From contig JABFGJ010000002.1 of the NCBI GenBank assembly GCA_013112545.1, positions 248,001 through 312,000 on the forward strand: a DNA stretch of 64,000 nt, written 5' to 3'. This stretch comes from Bacteroidota bacterium (GTDB lineage Bacteria > Bacteroidota > Bacteroidia > Flavobacteriales_E > Vicingaceae). The notes below the pieces were generated by a model. The model was not told the origin of the DNA. It saw only the letters and a program-made list of their open reading frames with translations, and searched no databases. The position numbers and the translations under genes were made by a program. How positions within the stretch are numbered: the stretch's first letter is position 1; each line of letters begins with the position of its first letter. Below are positions 11,251 to 51,020 of the stretch, piece by piece.

Positions 11251-11272
11251 AATAAATACTTGATTTGTATAT

Positions 11273-11353
11273 GTTGCCGCAGGGTTGCACTTGTTCGCCG
11301 ATAGGAGGAAACCACTACGGAGCGTTTACTAATGAACATCCTTCGGTGCTAGT
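11273..11353. repeat. Island repeat unit, leftmost copy
   Basis: This ~80-bp unit begins GTTGCCGCAGGGTTG, contains GGAGGAAACCACT.CGGAGCG and ends CATCCTTCGGTGCTAGT. Near-identical copies lie at 12186-12265, 12658-12736 and 12878-12956. It is GC-richer than the flanking DNA. This copy sits between the promoter region of the T9SS gene and the end of yoeB, so it marks the left edge of the island. Confidence 0.8.
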
Positions 11354-11355
11354 TA

Positions 11356-11400
11356 TTATTTGCCGACGACCGAAGCCGGAACACTTATTTTCCTGATCCT
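11356..11400. repeat. 45-bp boundary sequence, copy A (abuts yoeB stop)
   Basis: The segment starts TTATTTGCCGACGACCG and ends TTTTCCTGATCCT one base before the yoeB stop codon. It matches 18182-18226 at 39 of 45 positions by eye; that copy overlaps the stop codon of an unrelated gene. Two different genes ending in the same sequence point to a cassette boundary or recombination site. It has not been tested as such. Confidence 0.75.
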
Positions 11401-11401
11401 T

Positions 11402-11656
11402 TCAATAATGATATCTACATTGAAGAACTCTTATTTGTCCTCCCTCCATTCGATAAACTAAACGATGTTCTAAAGTGATTCTTCTTGACCAATAACCTGA
11501 TAATTGATGTTTCAGTGGTTCTGGAGAACCTGTTCCCTTAAATGGATCACGGTCAATGTCTTTCAGTAAATTATTTATTTTCTTTAAAATTTTCTTGTCG
11601 TGATTTTGCCAATATAAATAATCATCCCATGCTTGATCTAAAAATACTACCTCCAT
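11402..11656 (-). CDS. yoeB: YoeB-type toxin (ribosome-dependent mRNA endonuclease)
   Basis: The 84-residue protein is the toxin of a type II toxin-antitoxin pair; YoeB cleaves mRNA in the ribosomal A site. Sequence and length match Escherichia coli YoeB closely, including DDYLYW, KPEPLKH-like SPEPLKH, SGYWSRRI, EHRLVY and the C-terminal CRYHY. The known catalytic residues fall at the same numbers: E46, R65, H83 and Y84. It is the second gene, with its start overlapping the yefM stop by one base (TAATG), which couples toxin translation to antitoxin. Its stop abuts the 45-bp boundary sequence shared with another cargo gene. Confidence 0.95.
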   Translation of the reverse strand: MEVVFLDQAWDDYLYWQNHDKKILKKINNLLKDIDRDPFKGTGSPEPLKHQLSGYWSRRITLEHRLVYRMEGGQIRVLQCRYHY

Positions 11657-11907
11657 TAATCTAATAAATCTTTGACTTCTCCTTTGCCGGCTTTATCCAT
11701 TTCAATGGCTTTTAATAAGCGTTCTGCATTTTTTGGACTACTCAATAAATGAAAGGTTTCTTGCATGCTGTTGTATTCACTTTTACTTATCAATACCATA
11801 TCGTTTCCTTTTGGTCTTTTGATAAATAAAGGTTTTCTCATACGAAGTACTTGCTCAAAATAGGCTTTCATATTTTGCCTAAAGTCGGTTAGTGTTGTTA
11901 TATCCAT
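11656..11907 (-). CDS. yefM: YefM-type antitoxin (Phd/YefM family)
   Basis: The 83-residue antitoxin neutralises YoeB and represses its own promoter. The N-terminal DNA-binding half is typical of the family (TTLTDFRQNMKAYFEQV, then KRPKGNDMVLISKSEYNSMQ), and the C-terminal half is the helical toxin-wrapping tail. It is upstream of and overlaps yoeB. A consensus -7 element and a TGTACA-type operator lie just upstream (11934-11967), the arrangement known for YefM autoregulation. The pair is carried as cargo beside remnants of a tyrosine recombinase. Confidence 0.93.
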   Translation of the reverse strand: MDITTLTDFRQNMKAYFEQVLRMRKPLFIKRPKGNDMVLISKSEYNSMQETFHLLSSPKNAERLLKAIEMDKAGKGEVKDLLD

Positions 11908-11933
11908 AACTATTTTTTTAAAACTCAGTTAAG

Positions 11934-11967
11934 CAAAGATAATCATAAATGTACAGGAGCTTGTACG
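11934..11967 (-). promoter_or_regulatory. yefM-yoeB promoter and TGTACA operator
   Basis: On the minus strand TATCTTTG (11941-11934) fits the -7 consensus. Just upstream lies TGTACA-N6-TGTACG read on the plus strand (11950-11967), an inverted repeat of hexamers. TGTACA is the known core recognised by E. coli YefM. The operator would overlap the -33 region. A second, perfect copy (TGTACA-N6-TGTACA) is at 12422-12439 with no toxin-antitoxin genes attached. Confidence 0.7.
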
Positions 11968-12265
11968 TTTATTAATTTTAATCTTTACTATTCTTTCTAA
12001 AACGGATAAAACTCATCGGTATCTTTCTGTAAATCTTCTGTATTATTCACTAATCCCAATTTAACGTTTAAATGAGCTAAAAACAAGAAACAAAAAAACT
12101 CAGCTCAGCAGGGTTAAACATGTTAGCCGCTAGGAGGAAGCCGCTGCGAAGCTCACGGTATTTTATGAAACTTCAGAGTTGACATGTTGCCGCAGGGTTG
12201 AACTTGTCCGCCGTTAGGAGGAAACCACTGCGGAGCGTTTACTAATGAACATCCTTCGGTGCTAG
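11939..12265. repeat. Long direct repeat, copy 1
   Basis: This ~327-bp segment is repeated nearly exactly at 12411-12736 (offset 472, later 471 after a one-base deletion). It contains, in order, the yefM operator, a recombinase 3' tail on the minus strand, and two GC-richer repeat units. In copy 1 it is joined to an intact yefM-yoeB pair; in copy 2 the pair is missing. Confidence 0.85.
11997..12053 (-). pseudogene. 3' remnant of a tyrosine recombinase, copy 1
   Basis: Read on the minus strand, this encodes LVNNTEDLQKDTDEFYPF and a stop. It matches the last 18 residues of the intact recombinase at 19741-20679 (LVNHTEDLQADIDQFYPF) at 14 of 18 positions. The match begins right after the position of the catalytic tyrosine. 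Upstream the frame becomes unrelated sequence. It is a gene end left behind by deletion or recombination. Confidence 0.8.
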
Positions 12266-12353
12266 TGAGCACATCCTACTTTTCAGAATAAAAGCGGTGT
12301 TCTATATGCTCTTGATAATCTACTTAGAGCTGCTAAACTTAAAATGATATAGA

Positions 12354-12410
12354 GTTGCCGCAGGGTTGCAAACCACTGCGGAGCTTTAAACTGAACATCC
12401 TGCGGAGCGC
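12354..12410. repeat. Short palindromic island repeat
   Basis: GCCGCAGGGTTGCAAACCACTGCGG is an imperfect hairpin here (arms CCGCAGGGTT and AACCACTGCGG around GCA). It is followed by GAGCTTTAAACTGAACATCCTGCGGAGCGC. Parts recur at 12739-12781, 12957-13001 and 13207-13275, and a perfected version at 14584-14606. Confidence 0.75.
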
Positions 12411-12736
12411 ATAATCATAAATGTACAGGAGGTTGTACATTTATTAATTTTAATCTTTACTATTCTTTCTAAAACGGATAAAACTCATCGGTATCTTTCT
12501 GTAAATCTTCTGTATTATTCACTAATCCCAATTTAACGTTTAAAGAGCTAAAAACATGAAACAAAAAAACTCAGCTCAGCAGGGTTAAACATGTTAGCCG
12601 CTAGGAGGAAGCCGCTGCGAAGCTCATGGTATTTTAAGAAACTTCAGAGCTGACATATTGCCGCAGGGTTGAACTTGTCCGCCGCTAGGAGGAAACCACT
12701 GCGGAGCGTTTACTAATGAACATCCTTCGGTGCTGG
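12411..12736. repeat. Long direct repeat, copy 2 (solo operator, no TA genes)
   Basis: This is the second copy of the 11939-12265 segment. Its left end joins a palindromic repeat at ATAATCATAA, where copy 1 continues into the yefM promoter. The operator TGTACA-N6-TGTACA is intact (12422-12439), but nothing of yefM or yoeB remains. Confidence 0.85.
12469..12525 (-). pseudogene. 3' remnant of a tyrosine recombinase, copy 2
   Basis: This is identical in translation to the remnant at 11997-12053 (LVNNTEDLQKDTDEFYPF, stop). Both lie in the same orientation as the intact gene at 19741-20679, with their 3' ends to the left. Confidence 0.8.
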
Positions 12737-13001
12737 TTGTAAACCACTGCGGAGCTTTAAACTGAACATCCTGCGGAGCGCAGTTGAACTTGTCCGCCGC
12801 AGGGTTAAACATGTTAGCCGCTAGGAGGAAGCCGCTGAGAAGCTCACGGTATTTTAAGAAACTTCAGAGCTGACATGTTGCCGCAGGGTTGAACTTGTCC
12901 GCCGATAGGAGGAAACCACTGCGGAGCGTTTACTAATGAACATCCTTCGGTGCTGGTTGTAAACCACTGCGGAGCTTTAAACTGAACATCCTGCGGAGCG
13001 C
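12581..13001. repeat. Tandem ~200-bp compound repeat, two copies
   Basis: Units 12581-12781 and 12801-13001 (period 220) are nearly identical. Each contains AGGGTTAAACATGTTAGCCG, a CTTCAGAGCTGAC segment, the ~80-bp island unit and a partial palindromic unit ending CTGCGGAGCGCA. The second copy runs straight into the coding tail at 13004. Open frames on the minus strand inside these units are by-products of the repeat. Confidence 0.8.
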
Positions 13002-13003
13002 AT

Positions 13004-13168
13004 GATATCCCCTCTGAAGTTTCTCTAAAAGAGGAATCTGCAATAGAACAAAACAGATTGTTTAATGAGTTGGACGAAGATGACCGACAAACGGTTCTAA
13101 CGATCGTTGATAAAATGCTGACCAATAAAAAGTTTAGCAACTTCTTTCAGGAAAATATTGCGAAATGA
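13004..13168 (+). pseudogene. C-terminal tail of an XRE-type regulator, copy 1
   Basis: A 54-codon coding remnant ends in TGA. It reads EVSLKEESAIEQNRLFNELD, then ...RQTVLTIVDKMLTNKKFSNF... This resembles the helical tail that follows the helix-turn-helix in many Bacteroidota XRE regulators. The DNA-binding domain is absent: the frame begins exactly where the preceding repeat unit ends. A terminator follows at once, so the 3' end is original and the 5' part has been replaced. Confidence 0.65.
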
Positions 13169-13198
13169 AAAAGCCAACTCATTGCTGAATTGGCTTTT
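13169..13198 (+). terminator. Terminator after XRE tail copy 1
   Basis: The stem AAAAGCCAA / TTGGCTTTT (13169-13177 with 13190-13198) encloses the loop CTCATTGCTGAA. It resembles the terminator at 13729-13754 in sequence as well as shape (both begin AAATGAAAAAGCC and contain CATTGCTG), which suggests a common origin. Confidence 0.75.
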
Positions 13199-13206
13199 CG
13201 TTTATT

Positions 13207-13267
13207 CTGCCGCAGGATTGCAAATCACTGCGGAACTCACGGTATTTTTAAACCCTTCGGAGCTGAA
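13207..13267. repeat. Palindromic island repeat, diverged copy
   Basis: It begins TGCCGCAGGATTGCAAATC and continues ACTGCGGAACTCACGGTATT, ending near CCTTCGGAGCTGAAC. It is a diverged copy of the island repeats and abuts the second XRE tail at its 3' side. Confidence 0.65.
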
Positions 13268-13453
13268 CTTTTTGCCACTTCTGAAGAACTCAAAGAAGTG
13301 AACTCACTCGATAAAACCATCATGGAAAAGGTTTCTTTGATTGAGCAGTTGAGCGAAGAAGAACGCCAAACACTTTACACCATGCTTGACGCTTTTGTAG
13401 GTAAGAAGAAGTTGAAAGACACTCTTTCAACTGTCCTAAATGATATGAAGTAA
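13268..13453 (+). pseudogene. C-terminal tail of an XRE-type regulator, copy 2
   Basis: About 61 codons from LFATSEELKEVNSLDKTIME to LKDTLSTVLNDMK and a stop form a helical tail of the same kind as 13004-13168 (compare DEDDRQTV with SEEERQTL). The helix-turn-helix domain is missing and the frame upstream (from 13190) runs through repeat DNA, so a start at 13190 is not trusted. A small intact gene follows 18 bases later, the same gene order as XRE plus small gene at 23389-24065. Confidence 0.6.
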
Positions 13454-13471
13454 AACTTAAAACGATTTGAT

Positions 13472-13723
13472 ATGAATGCTACTGTAAGAACTATTGTTGA
13501 CCAAAATGGAAAAGATTCAGGATCTATTATTCATGCTGACATTAGTCGGTCTACTACAGCTTTACAAAAAGCTCAGATTGAAGTTGACCTTATTGATTAT
13601 GCTTTCTCAACTCTCTACCCAAGAGAAGGTTTAAGTATTTACAGCAACATTCATTCTGACACTCCTTCCATTACTGTAATCCGAGATATTAATAAGCTAT
13701 CACAGCGAACAGTTGTTATCTAA
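13472..13723 (+). CDS. Small hypothetical protein downstream of XRE tail
   Basis: An 83-residue protein that I do not recognise. It has no signal peptide or membrane segment; it reads as a small mixed alpha/beta cytoplasmic protein (MNATVRTIVDQNGKDSG...). It follows a truncated XRE regulator by 18 bases and is closed by a good terminator. Its position parallels the 112-residue gene after the intact XRE gene at 23389, but the two proteins do not look alike by eye. It may no longer be expressed, since the upstream regulator gene has lost its 5' end. Confidence 0.55.
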   Translation: MNATVRTIVDQNGKDSGSIIHADISRSTTALQKAQIEVDLIDYAFSTLYPREGLSIYSNIHSDTPSITVIRDINKLSQRTVVI

Positions 13724-13728
13724 ATGAA

Positions 13729-13754
13729 AAAGCCCCACATTGCTGTGAGGCTTT
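13729..13754 (+). terminator. Terminator after the small gene
   Basis: The stem AAAGCCcCACA / TGTGaGGCTTT (13729-13739 with 13744-13754) has loop TTGC and is followed by GGATTTTTTAG. It also lies at the 3' end of the convergent lipoprotein gene. Confidence 0.7.
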
Positions 13755-13767
13755 GGATTTTTTAGAA

Positions 13768-14205
13768 TTACAGCTTAATGTGATTAATCACGTAATTATC
13801 TTTATCAGAGATAAATTTCGCATCGTTTCTTGAGAACTTTATTTGTTCTAAGAAACCGAAATCTTTTGAAATACTTCTTGGCACAAAGGTCTCTAACACG
13901 ACTTTCCCCTTATTCATAAAAATAAATAACGAGTATGATTCCGACCCAACAACACTTGTATTCGCTTCATCAGACCATTGAATCCCTAAACTTTCATTAA
14001 TCTTATTACCTGAAGTATATGGTCGAAATATGAATAGCTCATCCCAATCAAAATCAGTTATTTCGGCAATATCAATTACAATCTCCTTCTCTGTTTGAGA
14101 ACTTATGATTGACTTTAGCTTAGAATGGAATAATTTCTCTTCATTGCTTTCTTGTCCAAAACAAGAACTAAACATCAACACAGCTAAAAAAAACAAACAT
14201 CTCAT
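13768..14205 (-). CDS. Lipoprotein, candidate immunity protein
   Basis: The 145-residue protein starts MRCLFFLAVLMFSSCFGQES, a lipoprotein signal peptide with a plausible lipobox ending FSSC. The rest is soluble and of unknown family. It begins 2 bases after the stop of a truncated toxin-like gene (14208-14636), the usual place for an immunity gene in a polymorphic toxin locus. The immunity role is inferred from position and envelope location only. Confidence 0.6.
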   Translation of the reverse strand: MRCLFFLAVLMFSSCFGQESNEEKLFHSKLKSIISSQTEKEIVIDIAEITDFDWDELFIFRPYTSGNKINESLGIQWSDEANTSVVGSESYSLFIFMNKGKVVLETFVPRSISKDFGFLEQIKFSRNDAKFISDKDNYVINHIKL

Positions 14206-14207
14206 AA

Positions 14208-14636
14208 TTAACCTCCTGTAACTACTCTAGTATTGTCTTGTTTGACTTCAGGTGAAGGAATGGATAGTGGCTTCAACGTTGGCATAGGCTTCATAAATTG
14301 AGTTCCTTTTGTTGGGTTTAAGCCTTTGGTATTATCACGAGGATTATCAAATGCTTTTAACTTTCCACTCATTAAAGCCCCTAAAACTTTTGTCTGAGTT
14401 GTCTCAAATGAAGCATCAGGATTGTTCTCACCTATATCATGACCAACAGCATTATTATGCTTATCCATTTCTATCTCTCCTTTAACCGCAGCTTTTTCTA
14501 ATGGATCATCTATTGCTTCATGTGCATCACTTAATTCTTTCGCTAATTCTTTGCCTAGCGACTGAGTATTTAGGGCACCAGCTCCGCAGGGTTTGCAACC
14601 CTGCGGCACATTTACACTTTTACAATTTAAGTTCAT
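14208..14636 (-). CDS. DUF6973-like toxin-domain fragment with palindromic repeat in its coding sequence
   Basis: The 142-residue protein contains AHEAIDDPLEK...EMDKHNNAVGHDIG (about residues 38-70), the second half of the DUF6973 motif set seen whole in the secreted protein at 26751-27359. The first half (the FRHGMW-type segment) is missing. Residues ~11-19 (PQGCKPCGA) are the translation of a perfect palindromic repeat (14584-14606), so the current N-terminus was created by repeat insertion or recombination. A lipoprotein gene follows 2 bases later. It is likely a broken or displaced polymorphic-toxin C-terminus; activity is doubtful. Confidence 0.55.
   Translation of the reverse strand: MNLNCKSVNVPQGCKPCGAGALNTQSLGKELAKELSDAHEAIDDPLEKAAVKGEIEMDKHNNAVGHDIGENNPDASFETTQTKVLGALMSGKLKAFDNPRDNTKGLNPTKGTQFMKPMPTLKPLSIPSPEVKQDNTRVVTGG
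14584..14606. repeat. Perfect palindromic repeat inside a reading frame
   Basis: CCGCAGGGTT-TGC-AACCCTGCGG has 10-bp perfect arms and a 3-base loop. It is the strongest hairpin of the island repeat family. It lies in the 5' coding part of 14208-14636 and 31 bases from the transposase tail at 14637-14780. Confidence 0.85.
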
Positions 14637-14780
14637 TCATCGAATTTGTATGAAAATAGGAGTTAAGCATTCTACTTCTTTCAATAATATTATTTCTGTT
14701 TCAACATAATTTGAAGCTGATGAATATAACCACTCTTCTTGTTTTAAAACAAAGCCGTAATTACAAGCTCTATTAACTAT
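14637..14780 (-). pseudogene. C-terminal remnant of a REP-associated (RAYT/Y1) transposase
   Basis: On the minus strand a 47-residue remnant reads ...NRACNYGFVLKQEEWLYSS then ASNYVETEIILLKEVE... and ends in TGA. This resembles the tail of REP-associated tyrosine transposases (family pattern NPV.AG.V...E.W.YSSA.NY). The catalytic HUH and Tyr parts are gone. It directly follows, in the same frame, the stop codon of the lipoprotein gene 14781-15362. RAYT enzymes are known to move short palindromic repeats, which fits the neighbouring palindromes. Confidence 0.6.
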
Positions 14781-15362
14781 CTACCATATCATGGGCTTCT
14801 TTAAAGCGGGCATATTTTTTTCTCCTAATGCTTTACCTATTTGTAATAATAATTCATATTCTTCAACTGTGCTTGGAGGCACAGCCTTAGCACATAGTGC
14901 AATAGGGGTTAAATTATCTCCAAGCCCTGGTCTTACGCCCGTAACTACCTCCGAATTGTAAGTGTGAATAGAAACTTTGGTTTGATTTACATTTACAGAA
15001 TCTAAATGAATATGAAACTCGGCATTCATTTTTAACCGCCCCCACCAAGAATAATACATAGCTGATTTCCCGATAAACTCATAGGAATATAAATAAGCAT
15101 CGTCTTCGTTTCCAGGTTCATATAAAACTTCACGTTTATATTCTTTATCTCTTATATCCAAAATCATCCCTCTAAATTGTCTATTACCTAAGCTATCAAT
15201 AATCACTTTCCTAATATCTTGTGTTGATTCATTGAAAACATAGCTTGTTGGATTTACTTCCTTTAATCGCATAGCGAGTTTAAAACAACAACTATTTAAA
15301 AACAATATTATTATTAAAAAAACTATGAATAGTGATTTACTTATTAATTTGTCAATTATCAT
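14781..15362 (-). CDS. Lipoprotein, candidate immunity protein for the upstream Rhs toxin
   Basis: The 193-residue protein has a hydrophobic N-terminus (about residues 8-24) ending FLNSCC, a lipobox-like site. The family is not recognised; the mature part contains YEPGNEDDAYLYSYEFIGKS and reads as a beta-rich soluble domain. It starts 35 bases after the stop of the Rhs-core toxin gene 15398-16243 on the same strand. An envelope-anchored lipoprotein behind a phospholipase-like toxin is a sensible immunity arrangement, but that is inference. Its C-terminus (PMIW) may have been altered, because a transposase tail follows in frame. Confidence 0.6.
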   Translation of the reverse strand: MIIDKLISKSLFIVFLIIILFLNSCCFKLAMRLKEVNPTSYVFNESTQDIRKVIIDSLGNRQFRGMILDIRDKEYKREVLYEPGNEDDAYLYSYEFIGKSAMYYSWWGRLKMNAEFHIHLDSVNVNQTKVSIHTYNSEVVTGVRPGLGDNLTPIALCAKAVPPSTVEEYELLLQIGKALGEKNMPALKKPMIW

Positions 15363-15397
15363 TTTCCGGTTCTAATTATTACTAATATTAACACGCT

Positions 15398-16243
15398 TTA
15401 CTGTTCTTTTTTAGTAGTTGTATTTGCATCTTTTTTCGATTTCACTTTTTCATATTGTGTTCTCACTTTTTGAACAGCTTCATCAAATAATGCATTATAT
15501 TCTTGTGGATCAATATTTTTCTGTTTTTCTCCAGCAGCGTGTTTAAATGGTTTATGATATTCCAAAGGAGTATAAGTTCCATCATCATTTTTCTTTCCGT
15601 GTGTAGGTGAATTTTCATCCATAGTTGGATGTAGTGCCATTCCTAAACTAATTAATCCCTTTATTTCGTTATCAGAATTAACATACTCATCCTCCTTCTC
15701 AGTGACAAAATCTTTTTTAAGTTGAATAGCCTGCTCTACAGTCTTATTTGATGGTTTCATAGAGTGCATAAATTGATTTTTGTTCCATTGATTTCCTCGA
15801 AATGGATTATCTGCTCTTTTACTTCCTTTAATGATTGCCTTTACTTGTTTTTCTGTCATTGCTCCAGACTTTAGCTCTGGTTCAAATGCTTTTCTTATAA
15901 TTTGCTCATGTACTTTTGTTGGCCAATTTCCATCAACATCTACTTGTGAAATTGGGTTATTAAAAAATACTGAAAAAGGAGACCATTCGGGACCTTTTTT
16001 AAAGTCAGGATCAACATTCCATCTTCTACCTAACCTTGTGTCTAAACCATAATCTCCAAAAGAGTAATTATTTCCTGAACCACTTACTTCATCATTCCTC
16101 TCTTGTCCTTGGAAGCCATAGGTGTAAGCATTTAGGCAAAAAATTGACTCGATGTCATTCTTTTCTAGAGACTTACCAAAAAAATTGGCATTCACCTCTA
16201 AAGCTTCCTTTGGCTCGTAATATGTTAGTTTAAGGCATCCCAT
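15398..16243 (-). CDS. Orphan Rhs-core protein with metal-dependent phospholipase C-like C-terminus
   Basis: The start chosen is the ATG at 16243 (MGCLKLTYYEPKEA), an N-terminus that to my knowledge is common on orphan Rhs-core proteins of Bacteroidota; an ATG 12 bases upstream is possible. Residues ~38-105 are the Rhs-associated core (AYTYGFQGQE, DTRLGRRWNVDP, FFNNPI, DVDGNW). The C-terminal domain has H112, ADN about 144-146, HSM at 160-162 and H205-x3-D209-x5-H215, the order of Zn ligands in bacterial phospholipase C. A membrane-damaging effector is therefore likely. It has no signal peptide and no Rhs barrel, so it may be an unexpressed toxin cassette awaiting recombination. Confidence 0.65.
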   Translation of the reverse strand: MGCLKLTYYEPKEALEVNANFFGKSLEKNDIESIFCLNAYTYGFQGQERNDEVSGSGNNYSFGDYGLDTRLGRRWNVDPDFKKGPEWSPFSVFFNNPISQVDVDGNWPTKVHEQIIRKAFEPELKSGAMTEKQVKAIIKGSKRADNPFRGNQWNKNQFMHSMKPSNKTVEQAIQLKKDFVTEKEDEYVNSDNEIKGLISLGMALHPTMDENSPTHGKKNDDGTYTPLEYHKPFKHAAGEKQKNIDPQEYNALFDEAVQKVRTQYEKVKSKKDANTTTKKEQ

Positions 16244-16268
16244 TTCTATGTGCAAGATACTAATTTTC

Positions 16269-16520
16269 TCACTTTACAATCTGTTTAATAATCTCAATTA
16301 TTGAAATGTAATCTTTGTTGAAGTAACACATTGCCGTTATTAGTAGAACTATCATAACTTTCAAACTTGGCAACTTAAATTCTATTCCTTCAATTCTCTT
16401 AATTTTTATCATGTCTTTTATTTTCTCTTTATATACATTATGCCATTTTTTTCTCAGATTACCAAGGACTATTGATTTGCTTCCAAAGTTCCAATGAGTT
16501 CTTAAATGAAAATAGGACAA
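16269..16520 (-). CDS. Small putative membrane protein
   Basis: An 83-residue open frame with one hydrophobic segment near the C-terminus (about residues 53-68, KVMIVLLITAMCYF). No family recognised. An internal Met at about residue 37 could be the real start. It lies 13-25 bases upstream of the Rhs-core gene on the same strand and could be the leftover immunity gene of a lost toxin; this is a guess from position. It could also be non-coding. Confidence 0.3.
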   Translation of the reverse strand: MSYFHLRTHWNFGSKSIVLGNLRKKWHNVYKEKIKDMIKIKRIEGIEFKLPSLKVMIVLLITAMCYFNKDYISIIEIIKQIVK

Positions 16521-17024
16521 GAAAAAAGTTCTTTAATTCAGTTTAAATTAATATTAATTAGTAAGTTGATGAATAAAGTTAGATTAAAAGCGTTTGACAT
16601 AAAAAGCTATACTTTTTGAATTCAATTACTTAGAAGGAATGTAAGTCGGACAGATTTTTACAAATCTTTTTTTGTCCTATATCGCTTATTTAAACAGTTC
16701 AATTTAAATGCCTTACAAAGGTTCAATATGACATTAATATAAAGTACCCACAGCCAACAAAACCCAAGTTGTTTGCTAAGGCAAAAAATCCTTTGTGTTT
16801 TCTTGGCTTCCGCTTATCTTCCCAAGGCTTTTTAAACCCCATTTTTTGAGCAACCCAATAACAGCACTTGATTACAAAAGCTGTTCCTTGTCCAAGAAAA
16901 ATAAGGTTTAAAAAGCTGCCAAGCTAAGTAACATAATGTGCATTATAGAACTTCTCACGCCTTGTGATTTTTGATTTTGTTGTTCGGGTCAACTATAATG
17001 TACATTATGTAAAATAGCTCCCTT
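16521..17024. other. Non-coding stretch with inverted repeats
   Basis: No gene is supported. It contains AAGGCTTTTTAAACCCC (16824-16840), repeated in the same orientation at 17861-17876. Near the right end, a TAACATAATGTGCATTATAG block (about 16928-16947) and a CTATAATGTACATTATGTAA block (about 16994-17013) form an inverted pair, each half itself palindromic. The second block sits just beyond the stop of the 88-residue gene. Confidence 0.5.
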
Positions 17025-17291
17025 CTAACGCTCTTTTTTTAAGTGATATAAAATCTTAGAGACGATTATACTAAATTCCCTTTTGAAATGATCTGTATTA
17101 TATGATTCTTCATTATCATGTGTAAGATTTTCCAACTTGACAAAGTAATGCTTAAACCAATCACTATCAACAACAAAGCTTAGTTCTTTATTCTTATTAT
17201 CATCTAATATTTTAAATACTTCAAAAGCTGATTTATGATTCTCATTTCTTGCATGAGCTTCAATTTCATTAATAATTTCGTCAAGTTTCAT
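17025..17291 (-). CDS. Small hypothetical protein
   Basis: An 88-residue acidic, helical, cytoplasmic protein (MKLDEIINEIEAHARNENHK...). I do not recognise a family. It is bracketed by non-coding DNA with inverted repeats: a palindromic pair lies just past its stop codon, and a GC-richer non-coding block lies upstream. That makes it look like a single-gene cassette. The start at 17291 is the only good ATG. Confidence 0.5.
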   Translation of the reverse strand: MKLDEIINEIEAHARNENHKSAFEVFKILDDNKNKELSFVVDSDWFKHYFVKLENLTHDNEESYNTDHFKREFSIIVSKILYHLKKER

Positions 17292-18181
17292 AAAATATAT
17301 TTATTTATCAATCTATTTCTGTGTGATAACTCGCTCCATTCCTTGCTCCAACGCATTGGCAACGCAAAAGCAAGTCATATCCGTCTCTGATTATCACACC
17401 CAAATAGATTCTTTTTTTTGATAGTCCAAATGAAAGAAAAAATGTTGACTACTGAAAAAAACGAACTCCATTTTAATGTAGAAGCTTGGGAAGTGCGTGG
17501 ATTTGTGCGGATTCTATATTAAAATGGAGTAATCCAAACGTTGCACTTAATTCAATCGAAGCAAAACACTTAACAGAGTGCGGAAGGGTGCTCCGAACTC
17601 TCTTTTCTTTAAAAACGGATGTTCATTTTAAAACGAGATGCAAGGAAAAAGCGCCTGCGGCTAAAAAGGCTGGGCAGTGGCTGCAATGAGTGAAGTGCAA
17701 CGGAACGGATTGCGGACATTGACCAAGCTTCAGCGAGCCGCCTGCGAGTGGAACAAGGGTGGGGCAAAAGAATAGATTTGCCAACAGCAAAGATATTTTT
17801 GCCGCTATGTAGGGGTTTAAAAAAACGGAGATACAATTAAACAATAAACAGGAGGATCGAGGCTTTTTTAAACCCCGGACGAGGCTAACCGCTTTAATCG
17901 CTAGAGCGAAGCGGAGGCAAATAAACAAGGTCAGCCGAAGCCCGCAGAGACCCGCAGGCTCGCTAAATTATGGGCAAACGGTGGGTTTTTAGCTTTTGCA
18001 ATATCTTCGATTTGCAAGGGCTAAAAACACAGAGTAATTTGCCGTGACAACTGACCAAGGAACGCAATAAAAGTGACAAGCTGCGAAGTGCAACGAAGCA
18101 CCCGAAGGGTTTTGCAGCTTATTTTTTTTACCTTTAAAAAGTCAACACTTTCAAAAAATGGGCTGCAAAAGCTTGGCGGTT
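17292..18181. other. Long GC-richer non-coding block
   Basis: About 890 bp with no convincing gene, richer in GC than its flanks. It holds an inverted repeat GGGGTTTAAAAAAA (17812-17825) / TTTTTTAAACCCC (17864-17876), an ATTTTAATGT / TATTAAAATGGAG pair (about 17471 and 17516), and a partly palindromic segment near 18078-18122 (AAGCTGCGAAGTGC...TTGCAGCTT). It ends at the 45-bp boundary copy at 18182. The density of hairpin-forming segments without coding sense suggests a structured RNA or a recombination/transfer region. Confidence 0.45.
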
Positions 18182-18226
18182 TTATTTGCTGACGACCGAA
18201 GTTGGAACACCGATTTTCCTGATTCT
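18182..18226. repeat. 45-bp boundary sequence, copy B
   Basis: It starts TTATTTGCTGACGACCG and ends TTTTCCTGATTCT, overlapping the first two bases of the stop codon of 18225-19136. It matches copy A at 11356-11400 at 39 of 45 positions. Copy A ends one base from the yoeB stop. Confidence 0.75.
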
Positions 18227-19136
18227 ATGATTTCAATAATTTAGATGCTCCTTCAGATAATGTTTCAAGAATGTAAGATGCTGTTTCTTTATTTATTACT
18301 TGGTCTATCGCCAAATCAATAACCTTTCCTTTTAAAAGCTGAATCCAAGTTTTTTTCTTCAATTTCCCTGACAATGACTTAAGCTCTTCGATCTCTTCAA
18401 AAATGATCTCTTGACCATATCCGAGTTTTTGTAGCTTTTCAATTACGATATCTACCTTTTCATTCAGTTCCTTCTCATGTTTCAGAGCTCTCTTTTTCTC
18501 TGTGGATTTCTTTTTTCTTTCAACATATGAAGCTCCTTTAACGGTAAGTTGTATCATTTGCTTTTTGTTGTATTCATCTGCAACTGCTACATAACCTTTT
18601 TTATAAAGACTTTCAGCTAATTCAAACGGTTCTTTATTCCGATAAGAAATGTCGCCTAATTCAAGCAAATATTCAATCGAATAAAAATGGTCGTTAAAAA
18701 CAAGATAGAGTTTTGCTAAAATATAATCTGTTTTATCCTGAATTGTATTGATTTTATCTTGTGGTTTCTCATGATTGTTATTTAAAATCAAAAGATAATC
18801 CTGGAACCTTTGTAGTGATTGCAACTTGCTATTGATGATATCTTTGTACATTTCATCTTTATCATCCGTATTTTTTAACCAACCGTAGCTAAATTCAAGC
18901 CTATCACTCAAACGGGTTAATGAACTGTATTTAAAGTTATCTACTAAAAATTCTGGTATTGGCTTAAGGTGTTGTTTAATACATTTTTCTACTTTCTCTT
19001 CCCATTGATCAGTTAACTTAAAAATGTCATCTTCTGATTTTACATTGGGATATTTTAGAATGTCTCTACAATCAGACTTAAGCAACTCCAATTCCTTACA
19101 AATTGCTTCGTAACCTTGTGTAAACTGATACTTCAT
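18225..19136 (-). CDS. Hypothetical helical protein, cargo next to ORF6N gene
   Basis: A 303-residue soluble protein of unknown family. The N-terminal ~190 residues are helical (MKYQFTQGYEAICKELELLK...). A central part (about 165-210, including YKKGYVAVADEYNKKQMIQL then TVKGASYVERKKK) resembles a winged helix. Then comes a Lys-rich linker, a helical hairpin and a C-terminal segment (ASYILETLSEGASKLLKS). It follows the ORF6N gene by 3 bases on the same strand, so the two form an operon. Its stop codon overlaps the 45-bp boundary sequence. A regulatory or phage-conflict role is possible but unproven. Confidence 0.6.
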   Translation of the reverse strand: MKYQFTQGYEAICKELELLKSDCRDILKYPNVKSEDDIFKLTDQWEEKVEKCIKQHLKPIPEFLVDNFKYSSLTRLSDRLEFSYGWLKNTDDKDEMYKDIINSKLQSLQRFQDYLLILNNNHEKPQDKINTIQDKTDYILAKLYLVFNDHFYSIEYLLELGDISYRNKEPFELAESLYKKGYVAVADEYNKKQMIQLTVKGASYVERKKKSTEKKRALKHEKELNEKVDIVIEKLQKLGYGQEIIFEEIEELKSLSGKLKKKTWIQLLKGKVIDLAIDQVINKETASYILETLSEGASKLLKS

Positions 19137-19139
19137 TGT

Positions 19140-19685
19140 TTACTCCTCGTTTTTTCGTTTGTAACCAATTGCCTCTCTATTTTTTTGATCTAATTCCTGT
19201 TGTTTAACAGCTTCCAATTGCTTCAAGTATTTAAAAATTAACTCAATGTCCTTGCTATTGCTTCCTGTTTCTTTTCTAATCTTTTCCAACTCAGATAAAA
19301 TGTCCTTATGAGTTAAAAGCATTTCTCTCATTTTAGTAAAAGTCCTAACAATTCGAATATTCATTTCAATAGCTCGATCGCTATTTAAAACACATGAAAG
19401 CATTGTTAATCCTTGTTCAGTAAAACAAAAAGGAGCATATCTCAATCCTTTTCTATCTTCATTGGAGGTCACATTTTGTGATCTCCAATTTTCAAACTCT
19501 TCCTTATCCATTTCAAACATAAAGTCTTCTGGAAATCGTTTCATATTTCTTCGGACTGATTGTTTTAAAACTCTTGTTTCTACTTCGTAAAGCTCTGCTA
19601 AGTCTCTGTCAAGCATCACTTTTTGACCTCTTATTTCGTAGATTTTACTCAAAATAACTTCTTCTGGAATACTTACTTTACTCAT
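19140..19685 (-). CDS. ORF6N-domain DNA-binding protein
   Basis: The 181-residue protein has the ORF6N domain at residues ~10-95 (EVILSKIYEIRGQKVMLDRD, LAELYEVETRVLKQSVRRN, RFPEDFMFEM, then GLRYAPFCFTEQGLTMLS), followed by a coiled tail. ORF6N and the related KilA-N domains are found in phage and mobile-element proteins and are thought to bind DNA. Length is typical of stand-alone bacterial copies. It lies upstream of the 303-residue unknown gene (3-base gap) and downstream of the second recombinase, in the same transcription direction. Confidence 0.9.
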   Translation of the reverse strand: MSKVSIPEEVILSKIYEIRGQKVMLDRDLAELYEVETRVLKQSVRRNMKRFPEDFMFEMDKEEFENWRSQNVTSNEDRKGLRYAPFCFTEQGLTMLSCVLNSDRAIEMNIRIVRTFTKMREMLLTHKDILSELEKIRKETGSNSKDIELIFKYLKQLEAVKQQELDQKNREAIGYKRKNEE

Positions 19686-19740: not shown

Positions 19741-20679
19741 CTAAAACGGATAAAACTGGTCTATATCTGCCTGCAAATCTTCTGTATGATTTACCAAATA
19801 TCCTTCCGTTGAACTGACATATCGATGACCTGCAAAATATTGAACTTGCCTTAAATTAAATTGCTTCAACCAATGAGTAATGACAGAAGTCCGAACTTGT
19901 TTGAAGTTGATAAATTCTTTGTTTTGTTCTCTTATTTCTTGACTCAATCGCTTCCAAACCTCTTTACAATCTGTTCTTACATTGCATTTTCTACCAAATG
20001 GTGGTGAACTGATAAATAGGTTTTTAGTTTCTTCTTTGCAGAATTTCAACAGCTCATTTCTTGTTGTATATTGGTATTCCATCAACTCAATAATCTGGTT
20101 TGATTTCAATTCTAAAATTCGTTCATTGCTCTTTCTTCCTCCTCCAATAAATACTTTTCCCTCTTTCAATTTCAAATCATTTAGTTGCAAATTATTTACC
20201 TCAGGAGTTGTTAAACCTTGATTGATCATTAAACTTAAAATGGCTTTATTTCTCGCTTTTCCTATTCGATAACTTTCAAACCAATTTCGATTTGCTCGCT
20301 CATCTTTTTCATCAGGAACTTTGTAATCATTGTAGATTTTGTCCAACTGTTGTTTGTCTAAAATCGGATAAAGCTTTTTGGTTTTTGTTCCTCTAATTTT
20401 CAGATGTTGAACTGGATTTTCTGTTCGATGGCCACCATCAATTTGAAAGTTAAAAAACTGCTTGATTACATTCAATCTGATATTTCTGGTTTTATTCTCC
20501 TGTCCTCTTTTTTGTAAGTGGCCTAAATAACTCAAAACTTCTTTTGCTGTGGCATTTTCGATTGTAGTTCCATCTTTGTCCAACCAAGCTAAAAAATCAA
20601 GCGCATAAGTGTTGTAATGACTTACAGTTGACTTACTTTTTCCATGACTTTGCAAGTGTTCTTTAAAACTATTCGCCAT
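19741..20679 (-). CDS. Second tyrosine recombinase of the pair, catalytically degenerate
   Basis: The 312-residue protein has an N-terminal SAM-like core-binding domain (about 1-90) and a C-terminal phage-integrase fold. The box I arginine is replaced by threonine (GLTTPE, T157) and the box II histidine by lysine (FKQVRTSV, K260). R263, H285 and the nucleophile-position Y294 (TEGYLVN) remain. It may act only as a partner of the canonical recombinase, or be a structural subunit. It overlaps the upstream recombinase gene by 11 bases. Its last 18 codons occur twice more at 11997-12053 and 12469-12525. Confidence 0.85.
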   Translation of the reverse strand: MANSFKEHLQSHGKSKSTVSHYNTYALDFLAWLDKDGTTIENATAKEVLSYLGHLQKRGQENKTRNIRLNVIKQFFNFQIDGGHRTENPVQHLKIRGTKTKKLYPILDKQQLDKIYNDYKVPDEKDERANRNWFESYRIGKARNKAILSLMINQGLTTPEVNNLQLNDLKLKEGKVFIGGGRKSNERILELKSNQIIELMEYQYTTRNELLKFCKEETKNLFISSPPFGRKCNVRTDCKEVWKRLSQEIREQNKEFINFKQVRTSVITHWLKQFNLRQVQYFAGHRYVSSTEGYLVNHTEDLQADIDQFYPF

Positions 20680-21607
20680 TTTCTTTTGGAATTAAATGAG
20701 TATAAATTTGAGTTGATTCTAATGTTGAATGACCTAAAAACCGTTGAATTTTCTGCAATTCCATTCCATTCTGAAGTAAATGAGTAGCAATGGAATGCCG
20801 CAACGTATGTAAACCAACTTCTTTTTGCTGTAAACTGGTATTTTCAACCAATACAATCAATTTTTTTAATCTGCCATACAAGCTGGATCCTGCCATTGAT
20901 TTTCCAAACATTCCAATAAACAAACTACTTTCTTTTTGACTTTTAATTAACTGAGGTCGATAATCATAAATATATTCCTGTAAAATTTTAGAACTCGATT
21001 TGCTGAACGGAACTAATCTTTCCTTGTAGTTTTTCCCTTTCCGAACATGTAAAATTCTTCTGTCAAAATTCAAATCATCTAAGATCAAACTGCTTCCTTC
21101 TGTTCTTCGTAATCCACAACCATAGAAGACGACCAACATGGCTTTATCTCTGGCGTTAAATGCTTCTTGTTTGGGATGTGGGGTTTCTTGGTTGGTCACT
21201 TCAAAAAGCTGTTTGATTTCTTCCTGAGTTAATACCGTAAAATTTCCCTTGTCTAGTTTGAGTTGTTTTAATGTTACTGGTGGAATTCCTCTTGTTCCTT
21301 TATGAATTAAAAACTCATAAAACTTTTCTAAAGCTTGAATTTGCTGATTGATGTAAACATTTCCTAAACCACCACCACGCCTTTGATTTGGTCTTGAACT
21401 GATGTGATTGAAGTAATTTTTATAATCTTGGGTTTGGATTTGATTGATTTGGTTGCAGTCCTGCTGCTCTAAAAAGTGTAGAAATTCCCTGATGTTGTGC
21501 GGCATATTGTAAACCGTTTGAGGATTATAACCCAAGATGTCTAACCACTCTGTAAAAGCAATTTGCAAATGTTCAAAGCTTGCGTTTTTGAGGACTAAAA
21601 ATTTCAT
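20669..21607 (-). CDS. First tyrosine recombinase of the pair (XerC/D-like, canonical)
   Basis: The 312-residue site-specific recombinase/integrase cuts and rejoins DNA through a 3'-phosphotyrosyl link. All catalytic positions are seen: R167 (GLRRTE), a Lys in VRKGKN, HTLRH (H267, R270), LGH (H293) and Y302 (IYTHL). The N-terminal core-binding domain spans about residues 8-105. Its start follows the ATPase stop directly (TAAATG) and its end overlaps the second recombinase, so the three genes are translationally coupled. It is not the housekeeping XerC or XerD, given this context. Confidence 0.93.
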   Translation of the reverse strand: MKFLVLKNASFEHLQIAFTEWLDILGYNPQTVYNMPHNIREFLHFLEQQDCNQINQIQTQDYKNYFNHISSRPNQRRGGGLGNVYINQQIQALEKFYEFLIHKGTRGIPPVTLKQLKLDKGNFTVLTQEEIKQLFEVTNQETPHPKQEAFNARDKAMLVVFYGCGLRRTEGSSLILDDLNFDRRILHVRKGKNYKERLVPFSKSSSKILQEYIYDYRPQLIKSQKESSLFIGMFGKSMAGSSLYGRLKKLIVLVENTSLQQKEVGLHTLRHSIATHLLQNGMELQKIQRFLGHSTLESTQIYTHLIPKENGE

Positions 21608-23236
21608 TTACGATACCTTTTTAGCTTCTTCTGTGAACTTGTCCTTTATTTTGCTGATTCTCTTTTTCTTAAGTGGTTCATTCTCATTTTGAACTACTGG
21701 CGAACCTGTGAACCTCTCCAACTTTTTAAGGTTTTCATCTAATACATTACTTACATGGTTCTTAAGCTCTTGAAACTCTTTATAACTAACAATCTGATAA
21801 TTATAAGCTGTTCCCTTTTTGCCTTTCACTTTCTTAATGTAGAAATTACTTAACAGACTTAAATTGTATCTTTTCTGATTGCTTGGATTGACTTTAAACG
21901 CTCTTCTAATTTCTTGATTGGTAAACTCTTTTTTATTTTCTTGTTCCAAATAACTTTTAACAGCTTCTAAATAATCTCTGCAAGCTCCGCTCAATTCATC
22001 ACTTTTTCTTAGCAGTATTATTTTCATCAATTTGTTGGCTTCTTCTACATCTTCCAAAGTGGTTTCTATAAATACTTCTCCTGTTTCTTCATCTACTTTT
22101 TGTATTCTTTGATGTTGATGGTAAAAGGTAATGGCTTCAATAAATTGTAAATAATGGTTGTTGCTTCTCCTTGGTTTCAAAACTTCATCAGGTATATTCA
22201 ACAGCTCTGCAAATGGATTTACGATTGCAATGGGTTCTAGTATTCGTTGACAATTTTGCAATAATTCTTTAGCTTGATTTTCTGCTTCCTGGTTGATTTT
22301 TCTTGCACTAATTTTCCGCTGATAATCCATGATTCGTTTATCCTGTTCCTTGCTTTCATCGAGGTAAATTAAAAAGGATCTGTTGGCGTTATCTTCATAA
22401 ATCTGTTCTTTCGTTGTACATCCACTAACACTTACTGGACCTTCTACCACTAAATGAATGGTTCTAGTTTCTCCTTTGGTGTTCTTATGTGCAATGGTTT
22501 TCGAGATTCGTTTTTTAGATTGTAATTCTCGTAATGGATAAAGTACATTTTCAGCTCCATCTAAATCTTCAATTAATATGAGTTTGTGTTTCAGTTCTCT
22601 TTGTCCGAAGTAGTAAAAAGCATTCTCGCTTAAAGTTGTAATTTCTATTCTATCTTCATCAGGCATCAACTCTCCAACTTTTTCTTGCAAATGTGTTTTT
22701 CCTGTTCCGCTACTTCCTAAACTCACAATATGCAAAGGTTGCTGTCTCTTTCTGCTCGTAAAAATTAAAAACATAATCAAGCGATTAATCTCTTCTCCAA
22801 CAACGCCACTTTTTCCAATTAAATCATTTGTGTTTTCTAATAGTTTGGGAGTTTTTAAAAATACTTCTGCTGCTTTATGTTCCTCTGCTGTTAGCTTTGG
22901 ACTTTCATATTGTTGGCTTTCAGTTTCCTTTATTTGTTTGATTCTGTATTCTTCTAATGTTCCTGTTAGTTCAGCAATACTTGCAGCAATTATACTTGTT
23001 CCAATCTCCAACTTTTCGGCTGTTCTTCTGATCAGTTTCTCACAAGCTAAATCATTGTATAAATCCAAATTATGGCGAACTGGTGGAACACTACTATCAT
23101 TCAGCTCAATTTTTAATGTGCTTCGCATTCTGTCTAACCCATCCAATTTTATCCCACCCAAAACGGTTAGTTTTAAGATGTCGTTTTTGTAAATCAGATT
23201 TTCAGGATTATTGGTGTTGAAGTTTTTTGCTGTCAT
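21608..23236 (-). CDS. P-loop ATPase of the recombinase element
   Basis: A 542-residue protein with Walker A GSSGTGKT (174-181) and Walker B LILIEDLD (219-226), then a sensor-like region (VSGCTTKEQIYEDNANRSFL, about 276-296). The C-terminal third has a winged-helix-like region (FTNQEIRRAFKVNPSNQKRY). It resembles the ATPase half of primase/helicase-like proteins that I recall beside recombinase pairs in Bacteroidota, but no CHC2 zinc finger is present here. It is the first gene of the ATPase-recombinase-recombinase operon and probably prepares or holds DNA for recombination. Confidence 0.75.
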   Translation of the reverse strand: MTAKNFNTNNPENLIYKNDILKLTVLGGIKLDGLDRMRSTLKIELNDSSVPPVRHNLDLYNDLACEKLIRRTAEKLEIGTSIIAASIAELTGTLEEYRIKQIKETESQQYESPKLTAEEHKAAEVFLKTPKLLENTNDLIGKSGVVGEEINRLIMFLIFTSRKRQQPLHIVSLGSSGTGKTHLQEKVGELMPDEDRIEITTLSENAFYYFGQRELKHKLILIEDLDGAENVLYPLRELQSKKRISKTIAHKNTKGETRTIHLVVEGPVSVSGCTTKEQIYEDNANRSFLIYLDESKEQDKRIMDYQRKISARKINQEAENQAKELLQNCQRILEPIAIVNPFAELLNIPDEVLKPRRSNNHYLQFIEAITFYHQHQRIQKVDEETGEVFIETTLEDVEEANKLMKIILLRKSDELSGACRDYLEAVKSYLEQENKKEFTNQEIRRAFKVNPSNQKRYNLSLLSNFYIKKVKGKKGTAYNYQIVSYKEFQELKNHVSNVLDENLKKLERFTGSPVVQNENEPLKKKRISKIKDKFTEEAKKVS

Positions 23237-23388: not shown

Positions 23389-23724
23389 ATGACTATTTCT
23401 GAACGTATTCGATTAAGTAGGCAACAAAAAAATATCTCTCAAAAAGATTTAGCTGAACTTGCCGATGTAAATCTTAAAAGCCTTTCTCGTTATGAATTGG
23501 GAACTAGTATCCCTCCGGCTGATGTGATTAAGAAATTGGCGGATGCCTTAAAGGTTTCTACTGATACACTGCTTTCTGATGATAAAGTAGATATTCAAGA
23601 TATGGATTTATTGAAAAAGTTTGAAGTGATTCAAAACATGACTGGAGAAACGAAACAAACCGTCATCCATTTAATTGATCTAGCCATCAGAGATTTTAAA
23701 GCTAAACAAGCTTACGCTTCTTAA
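23389..23724 (+). CDS. XRE-family transcriptional regulator
   Basis: The 111-residue protein has a Cro/C1-type helix-turn-helix at residues ~3-60 (ISERIRLSRQQKNISQKDLA, ELADVNLKSLSRYELGTSIP), followed by a helical dimerisation tail. It is divergently oriented from the ATPase-recombinase operon, with a 152-bp gap, and is probably its repressor. A small gene follows 2 bases later. Similar C-terminal tails without the helix-turn-helix are left at 13004-13168 and 13268-13453. Confidence 0.88.
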   Translation: MTISERIRLSRQQKNISQKDLAELADVNLKSLSRYELGTSIPPADVIKKLADALKVSTDTLLSDDKVDIQDMDLLKKFEVIQNMTGETKQTVIHLIDLAIRDFKAKQAYAS

Positions 23725-23726
23725 AT

Positions 23727-24065
23727 ATGTCTTGGTACAACGGAGAATTTACTCAGCATCTAAGTGTTTCTATTAAAGCTAACGATCATAGCACCTGTTT
23801 AAGAGCTGCTAACTTCATTAAAAAGCAATGTGATGTTTGGGCCTTTAATGTAAGGTATGATGAACATAAATCCGTTCGAAAAGGTCCTGTTCTATCTAGA
23901 GATATTATGATTTATCAAGAAGCTCATGCTTCTGATATTTTAATCTTCAAAGAGGCTTTGAGAAGAGTTTGTAATCATATGATATTTCATCGAGATGATG
24001 TAGAAGTAAAATTTAATGATAAAGGAGCTGTACCCGTAAACAACCTTAGAAATCAACCAAATTAA
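23727..24065 (+). CDS. Small hypothetical protein of the recombinase element
   Basis: A 112-residue protein, unrecognised. It has no signal peptide or membrane segment; it contains SIKANDHSTCLRAANFIKKQ and IFKEALRRVCNHMIFHRDDV, suggesting a compact alpha/beta fold. It is co-oriented with the XRE gene with a 2-base gap, so the pair is one transcription unit. The same XRE-then-small-gene order occurs in the remnant at 13268-13723, with a different small protein. Confidence 0.6.
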   Translation: MSWYNGEFTQHLSVSIKANDHSTCLRAANFIKKQCDVWAFNVRYDEHKSVRKGPVLSRDIMIYQEAHASDILIFKEALRRVCNHMIFHRDDVEVKFNDKGAVPVNNLRNQPN

Positions 24066-24157: not shown

Positions 24158-24685
24158 TTAGTGGACAGCGAAGCGATAGTATTTCTTTTTTACCAACTCA
24201 TACTCCCTTTTATATTGAGTTACCTCTCCCAAGGAATCTAAAGTATAAACTAACTTTAAATTCAAATGTTTGTATTTTCTTAGCTTCTTTTTAAAATTGT
24301 CACAGGTGTAAAAGTCTGTCAAACACGGAATTTCTTTTCCATCTTTATCACGACAATTCTTTGAAATTGCAGGAGTCATCGGACGAGATTTTTTTTCTAA
24401 AATTGTTCCATCGGGAAAACTCAATTCTTGTTTAATAAAATTCACTTCAGAAATAGTGTCTTTTATCCACGTTGGGGCATTATATTTTGATAAACCACCT
24501 ATTTGCATCTCATTTCTATTTTGCGAAACCTTGACACTAATTGTGAACTGATTTTCCTTTAGTTCCATATATCTGTATGGCTTATTATTTTTACCATAAT
24601 CATATTCATAGAAGACAGATACAGCACAGCTATTTAATAAAATAGTAATTAAAATGATTGAAAATATTTTAATAAAGAGCTGCAT
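24158..24685 (-). CDS. Lipoprotein, candidate immunity protein for the adjacent Rhs toxin
   Basis: The 175-residue protein has an N-terminal signal ending LLNSC (about residues 15-19), a lipobox. The mature domain is not recognised; it contains two further Cys residues in DGKEIPCLTDFYTC. It starts immediately after the stop of the Rhs-core toxin gene (stop at 24686), which is the usual toxin-immunity order. This is the third toxin-like gene plus lipoprotein pair in the island. The immunity role is inferred from position. Confidence 0.6.
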   Translation of the reverse strand: MQLFIKIFSIILITILLNSCAVSVFYEYDYGKNNKPYRYMELKENQFTISVKVSQNRNEMQIGGLSKYNAPTWIKDTISEVNFIKQELSFPDGTILEKKSRPMTPAISKNCRDKDGKEIPCLTDFYTCDNFKKKLRKYKHLNLKLVYTLDSLGEVTQYKREYELVKKKYYRFAVH

Positions 24686-50299: not shown

Positions 50300-51020
50300 A
50301 ATCTTAAGAGAGATATTTCGTATTCTTTCTGCGCTAATCAGCGTAATCTGCCGGAGAAATTTTATGAGTTGAATAATTCCCGCTAATCTCGCAAATCTTC
50401 GCGGATATTAAGAGTGATATTTCGTATTCTATCTGCGCTAATCAGTGCAATCTGCGGGAGAAATTTATGAGTTGAATAATTCCCGCTAATCTCGCAAATC
50501 TTCGCAGATATTAAGGGAGATTAATTTTGTATTCTTTCCGTGTATATCAGCGTAATCTGCGGGAGAAATTTTATGAGTTGAATAATTCCCGCTAATCTCA
50601 CAAACCTTCGCGGATATTAAGAGTGATATTTCGTATTCTTTCTGCGCTAATCAGCGTAATCTGCCGGAGAAATTTTATGAGTTGAATAATTCCCGCTAAT
50701 CTCGCAAATCTTCGCAGATATTAAGGGAGATTAATTTTATATTCTTTCCGTGTATATCAGCGTAATCTGCGGAAAAAATATTTATGGGCTTTATAATTCC
50801 AGAGTTGATTAATTCCCGCTGATCTCACAAATCTTCGCAGATATTAAGGGAGATTAATTTTGTATTCTTTCTGCGCTAATCAGTGCAATCTGCGGGAGAA
50901 ATTTTATGAGTTGATTAATTCCCGCTAATCTTGCAAATTTACGCAGATATTAAGAGAGATATTTCGTATTCTATCTGCGTTAATCAGTGCAATCTGCGGG
51001 AGAAATACTTTGAGTCTTAT
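50300..51020. repeat. Seven-copy degenerate tandem repeat (~104 bp)
   Basis: About seven copies of a ~104-bp unit fill the ftcD-hutG gap. Each contains TCTGCGCTAATCAGCGTAAT (variants), CTGCGGGAGAAATTTTATGA, TTCCCGCTAATCTCGCAAAT and CTTCGCAGATATTAAG. Two subtypes alternate in part: one with GATATTTCGTATTC, the other with GATTAATTTTGTATTC. A related single copy is at 55830-55920. The unit holds GC-rich complementary pieces (CTGCG.../...CGCAG) that can pair. Confidence 0.85.

Follow-up and report, generated by a model that had tools for sequence, protein, structure and literature searches.

A probable collapsed unit in a tandem array of Rhs-tip mobile elements of Bacteroidota

The 64,000-nucleotide stretch of a Bacteroidota genome analysed here (the window) contains a remnant that is probably what is left of one unit, after collapse of its core, in a tandem array of mobile elements carrying Rhs toxin tips; it would have arisen by an ordinary core deletion, the ends being kept by selection for addiction and immunity. 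The remnant is real, recurrent and explainable; it is less strange than was first thought, and the element family is more interesting.

Results

A complete and a core-less unit

Read along the minus strand, a complete unit extends from position 25978 to about 16261 and is followed by a core-less unit from 16255 to 11356 (Table 1). A complete unit is composed of an Rhs toxin tip, immunity-like gene(s), a small gene, a divergent XRE regulator gene, an ATPase gene, two tyrosine recombinase genes (recA and recB), cargo and a non-coding end; immunity roles were assigned throughout by gene position only. The middle of the core-less unit is lost (the ATPase, RecA, most of RecB and the DNA-binding half of the XRE gene(s)), both ends are kept, GC-rich repeats lie in the gap, and the order and orientation of the tails are those of the intact unit, all as claimed in a preliminary description made from the sequence alone. 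Since the ATPase and both recombinases are absent, the stretch 11356-16255 is a remnant and not a working member of the element family. The segment singled out in that description, 11939-13754, cuts a larger structure; the YefM/YoeB pair, the end motif at 11356-11400, the genes at 13768-15362 and the Rhs tip at 15398-16255 also belong to the remnant. In both units, immunity-like gene(s) and an Rhs tip precede the XRE gene (13768-16255 in the broken unit, 24158-25978 in the intact one), and both Rhs tips are located at the XRE-side end of the unit, on the strand of recB.

The ORF6N protein of the intact-unit cargo (19140-19685) matches the PADLOC candidate defence model PDC-S05 (1.1e-61) and phage anti-repressor families. 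RecB seemingly has K for the usual H of the HxxR motif (KQVR), and RecA looks canonical; the two recombinases may have different roles. A comparison of the ATPase with solved structures gave no useful match. The non-coding end of the intact unit, about 2 kb long, is conserved block-wise with UBA5081 and has no Rfam match. There is no full-length Rhs gene at the right flank of the array, where mtgA is located at 26072; the array may once have lain behind a full-length toxin gene. The search for an empty site through mtgA synteny found none, the gene order around mtgA not being conserved in relatives. Elsewhere in the window, a tandem array of a 104-bp repeat (about 6.7 copies in two blocks) occupies 50304-51015.

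Table 1. Features of the core-less unit and of the neighbouring intact unit (window coordinates)
Feature	Coordinates	Strand	Remarks
Dispersed GC-rich repeat, left junction	11271-11354	+	Abuts the element end motif; repeat family D2
Element end-region motif	11356-11400		Copy of 18182-18226 in the intact unit (family D11); also present in G005:C11
YoeB toxin, cargo of the core-less unit	11402-11656	-	TIGR02116 1.8e-36; PF06769
YefM antitoxin, cargo of the core-less unit	11656-11907	-	PF02604 9.6e-18
Palindrome with TGTAC arms, upstream of yefM	11945-11972		Second copy 12417-12444
recB 3' tail, copy a	11995-12053	-	18 codons and stop; homology to recB ends
Tandem duplication, copy 2	12411-12881		472-bp; duplicates 11939-12410; holds recB tail copy b (12467-12525)
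220-bp tandem repeat, GC-rich, in place of the lost core	12579-13002		1.9 copies; tandem-repeat detection
XRE tail 1	13004-13168	+	54 C-terminal codons; Salibacter-element type
GC-rich repeat between the XRE tails	13208-13266	+	Repeat families D3, D6
XRE tail 2	13268-13453	+	About 59 C-terminal codons; G071-element type
Small gene beside XRE	13472-13723	+	83 aa; relative in G024 element
Three genes behind Rhs tip B	13768-15362	-	145, 142 and 193 aa; immunity-like by position only
Orphan Rhs tip B, start of the core-less unit	15398-16255	-	Homology to UBA5081 orphan tip
Non-coding end region of the intact unit	16261-18226		74-83% identical blocks in UBA5081
Intact-unit cargo: 303-aa protein and ORF6N protein	18225-19685	-	PADLOC PDC-S05
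RecB tyrosine recombinase, intact	19741-20679	-	
RecA tyrosine recombinase, intact	20669-21607	-	Named as the first recombinase; not the DNA-repair RecA
ATPase	21608-23236	-	No Pfam family; G074 relative fused to CHC2/Toprim primase
XRE regulator, intact	23389-23724	+	RstR family
Small gene of the intact unit	23727-24065	+	112 aa
Immunity-like gene behind Rhs tip A	24158-24685	-	By position only
Orphan Rhs tip A, start of the intact unit	24686-25978	-	TIGR03696 4.3e-13

Recombinase tails and toxin-antitoxin cargo

The two short stretches on the left side of the remnant (copies a and b in Table 1), already noticed as recombinase ends, genuinely derive, judging from homology, from the 3' end of a RecB-type tyrosine recombinase gene. 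On the strand of the intact recB, they read LVNNTEDLQKDTDEFYPF-stop. Their DNA identity to the recB end of the window itself is 83% over 59 bp; for the same element in UBA5081 (G005), it is 95% over 65 bp to the end of its intact recB; the tblastn E-value for the 18 residues was 2.8e-6. Both tails are contained in a 472-bp tandem duplication, which is recent, its copies agreeing over the first ~330 bp, with the first 134 bp 99% identical. They thus record one junction and not two, and the proposal that the collapse had happened at least twice finds no support in the left-hand pair.

The curated YoeB model and the Phd/YefM Pfam model both scored above cut-off, which identifies the adjoining genes as a type II toxin-antitoxin pair. 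The end motif is also found behind the cargo of the intact element of the window, which marks the YefM/YoeB pair as cargo of the broken unit. The block 11356-12053, comprising the end motif, both genes, the palindrome and the recB tail, is 90.5% identical over 706 bp to a region of G005:C11, its closest relative, with a longer recB tail (35 codons) and neighbouring genes that differ from those of the window. The palindrome is presumably the YefM operator, by analogy with YefM of E. coli. It was ruled out as a core site of the recombinases, being located upstream of yefM, having arms that fit a YefM operator and being absent from the intact unit.

XRE tails, small gene, Rhs tip and repeats

The two C-terminal XRE tails reported on the right side proved real. 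Both lack the HTH half, and they represent two different subfamilies: tail 1 has 80% DNA identity to the intact XRE gene adjoining the ATPase gene of the Salibacter element, and for tail 2, the match is the XRE of the intact element in G071:C32 (52% identity). Units of G074 contain two adjacent XRE genes; the tails could derive from two units or from one unit with two XRE genes of this arrangement. The likening of the small gene after the tails to that of the intact unit holds in part: a relative occupies the same position in the G024 element (38%, 3e-11), but the gene belongs to another family than the 112-aa gene beside the intact element of the window. The 142-aa gene behind Rhs tip B matches DUF6973; the tip itself has an Rhs core scoring below the NCBIfam cut-off and, over 109 aa, 59.6% identity to the orphan tip that adjoins the element of UBA5081.

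The 220-bp tandem repeat is nested inside the 472-bp duplication, and the segment has 22 matches in its own genome, mostly dispersed GC-rich repeats. Folding of a 204-nt repeat as DNA was unremarkable (z=-1.55), and an Rfam scan gave no convincing RNA. REP and other intergenic repeats are moved by RAYT transposases. The repeats of the remnant resemble them in being short, GC-rich, dispersed and intergenic, and a Y1 transposase gene adjoins the G063 remnant described below; however, the only Y1 transposase of the window genome (IS200-like; L165, G000:C2 31429-31773) is flanked by different repeats, with the hairpin GACCCCTTCGGGGTC, and a RAYT was therefore rejected as the mover.

The element family in Bacteroidota

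The three-gene element (a primase-linked ATPase and two tyrosine recombinases, with a divergent XRE gene) occurs widely in Bacteroidota, and an orphan Rhs toxin tip is carried by it. ATPase homologues were found at 76 loci in genome contigs and in 20 of 100 relatives; the gene order is constant (Rhs, divergent XRE, ATPase, RecA, RecB, cargo, Rhs), and the units are often arranged in tandem, some being 98-99.5% identical. An Rhs core lies beside 62 of the 76 element loci, most of the others being short contigs; no Rhs core was found at the 27 control loci (173 kb). Some members have an ATPase joined in one protein to a DnaG-like zinc finger and a Toprim domain, and this primase fusion suggests that the element may replicate. 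The search of open-access papers found no published description of the family.

At flavobacterial loci and in G063, orphan tips behind recB begin at [Y/F]xFGM codons of Rhs (DYYPFGM in flavobacterial arrays); tips starting at DYYPFGM codons were found at L083, L106, L110 and L116, in the Flavivirga and Salegentibacter arrays and in G063:C115. A conserved A/T-rich element end precedes these starts; full-length Rhs genes continue upstream. The common start suggests a site-specific insertion at the DYYPFGM codons, which would displace the old tip, and these codons are a possible attachment site of the family; JAUIAB has a different Rhs boundary, and the tips of the window also start differently, without the DYYPFGM boundary. 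A bolder scheme, where DYYPFGM is the attachment site of the family, each insertion swaps the tip, displaced tips form a growing array and core-less units keep their Rhs boundaries and are mobilisable in trans, would make the array akin to an integron for toxin tips and addiction modules; we consider it speculative and doubtful.

Core-less units in other genomes

A search for recB C-tails in 46 and 247 genomes, with inspection of the surroundings of the matches, revealed about 30 orphan tails in all; N-terminal-only recB fragments numbered about 2 in the same 247 genomes, the N-terminal profile being less sensitive. The tails comprise 18 to 102 codons up to the stop and have no nucleotide boundary in common, and all 30 endpoints lie in the last third of the gene; a single fixed recB breakpoint is ruled out by the varying lengths. 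Three loci, in the window, G063:C115 (26324-26738) and G276:C35, pair an orphan recB tail with a divergent XRE C-tail facing it, so that a check set beforehand, the search for the same two-ended remnants elsewhere, had a positive outcome; in these three, the first XRE model position matched lies between 38 and 68 of 110. Units in G042 consist of an Rhs tip, an immunity-like gene, a recB tail and cargo, the core being gone. In the window and in G063 (34 matches), a dispersed repeat stands where the core was lost, and GC-rich repeat-like sequence is located just upstream of the recB tail of G023:C130; the G042 and G276 junctions showed no obvious repeat. No sister genome, with one genome per species, shows the uncollapsed state at the same place.

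A toxin-antitoxin pair follows 12 of 31 orphan recB tails compared with 1 of 30 intact recB genes in the searched genomes (p=7e-4) and 12 of 94 in a wider intact set (p=0.003), where tails and genes are not phylogenetically independent, the statistics carry no phylogenetic correction and the cargo was classed by homology to visually selected seeds. ORF6N or Fic genes take the place of the pair behind some orphan tails. A solo recB tail with a toxin-antitoxin pair lies between housekeeping genes, without Rhs or core, in G063:C110 (L206, 36423-37073), and L164 (G071:C32, 7097-9220) contains an intact recB, a ParE-type pair, a second recB tail (first 51 bp identical) and then ORF6N.

Discussion

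The likeliest history of the remnant, in our judgement, is the ordinary loss of the core of one unit. The core would have been deleted between dispersed copies of the GC-rich repeat or by illegitimate deletion, and the short tandem duplications would have followed. The deletions would stop at two blocks that are hard for cells to lose, the toxin-antitoxin operon, with its promoter directly behind recB, and the toxin-tip and immunity genes opposite; the mobility genes would have no such protection, and the core would be eroded up to its protected neighbours. With the mobility genes unprotected and the flanking blocks protected, the unit would be a fossil that addiction and immunity have preserved, rather than something that a dedicated excision had produced. 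The confinement of all recB endpoints to the last third of the gene argues against uniform single deletions and calls for either repeated erosion or a function of the recB 3' end; the skew fits repeated erosion up to a selected border, and a 3'-end function could also explain it. A repeat- or recombinase-mediated collapse had been proposed earlier; the dispersed repeats at the junction agree with the former, but the recB endpoints, which vary even between the window and G005:C11, speak against a recombinase.

If the recB 3' tail were a working attachment or cassette-boundary site, cargo would be captured together with a copy of the tail, and the tail-cargo units would be mobile cassettes and not fossils. 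The best case for this is L164, where the second tail comes after an intact recB and its toxin-antitoxin pair; arrays of the tail-cargo-tail-cargo type in G063, G112 and G042, the solo tail of G063:C110 and the position of all endpoints near the recB end are also in its favour. However, each integron cassette has one defined recombination boundary, whereas the tails vary in length and share none at the nucleotide level, and an Rhs tip and an immunity-like gene lie between successive G042 tails, as expected of whole core-less units; such cassettes seem unlikely. Removal of the core by site-specific recombination through the element's own recombinases would account for similar two-ended products in three lineages with XRE homology starting within the same model interval, but it appears very unlikely in view of endpoints that vary between loci in both genes, the dispersed repeats at the window and G063 junctions and a recombination boundary that intact arrays seem to place at a different point, in the Rhs DYYPFGM codons. 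It is harder still to believe that unrelated XRE and recB fragments were assembled by chance around repeat DNA: XRE genes are common and the two tails come from two subfamilies, but tail 1 closely matches an element XRE at the DNA level, tail 2 has an element relative, an adjacent XRE pair as in G074 could leave two tails from one unit, and the order, orientation, Rhs tip, small gene and cargo all fit a unit.

The preferred history, that of a core deletion with selected ends, has parallels in described systems, and the earlier statement that no described element family leaves such footprints was too strong. Tandem arrays with integrases contain displaced Rhs/CdiA toxin-immunity modules, which have been proposed to be fossils kept for immunity, and selection for immunity keeps such DNA of CDI systems in the population (Ruhe 2016, PMC4927057). 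Like these orphan CdiA-CT/CdiI and Rhs-CT/RhsI arrays, with displaced toxin-tip and immunity genes in one orientation and recombinase genes between them, the window has two tips on the same strand, each with genes that are immunity-like by position only. In contrast to them, the units described here all have the same core (ATPase, two tyrosine recombinases, divergent XRE); their cargo is of the toxin-antitoxin or ORF6N/Fic/DUF1016-like kind and, in flavobacteria, their boundary at the Rhs DYYPFGM codons is constant. The arrays of PMC4927057 sit behind a toxin gene, whereas no full-length Rhs gene lies at the right flank of that of the window. The rAID (recombinase-associated acquired interbacterial defence) arrays of Bacteroidales combine a predicted tyrosine recombinase with arrays of short orphan immunity genes and conserved intergenic motifs (PMC12247911); they share with the present arrays the occurrence in Bacteroidota, the tyrosine recombinase and the co-orientation of genes tied to interbacterial toxins and immunity, but their description sets them apart from an element with two recombinases, a primase-linked ATPase and toxin tips. 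As far as the outline of the Vibrio cholerae T6SS effector-immunity pairs goes, these are displaced sequentially, old pairs piling up behind new ones (PMC5361080), a likeness by description to the present arrays.

If this reading is right, it supplies for Bacteroidota a definite element by which Rhs toxin tips are carried and displaced; until now, the best descriptions of this process have come from the CDI/Rhs arrays of Proteobacteria. Through the remnants, one can ask which genes in a mobile element a cell is forced to keep, and the polar survival of recB ends beside toxin-antitoxin pairs would be a countable, testable trace of addiction.
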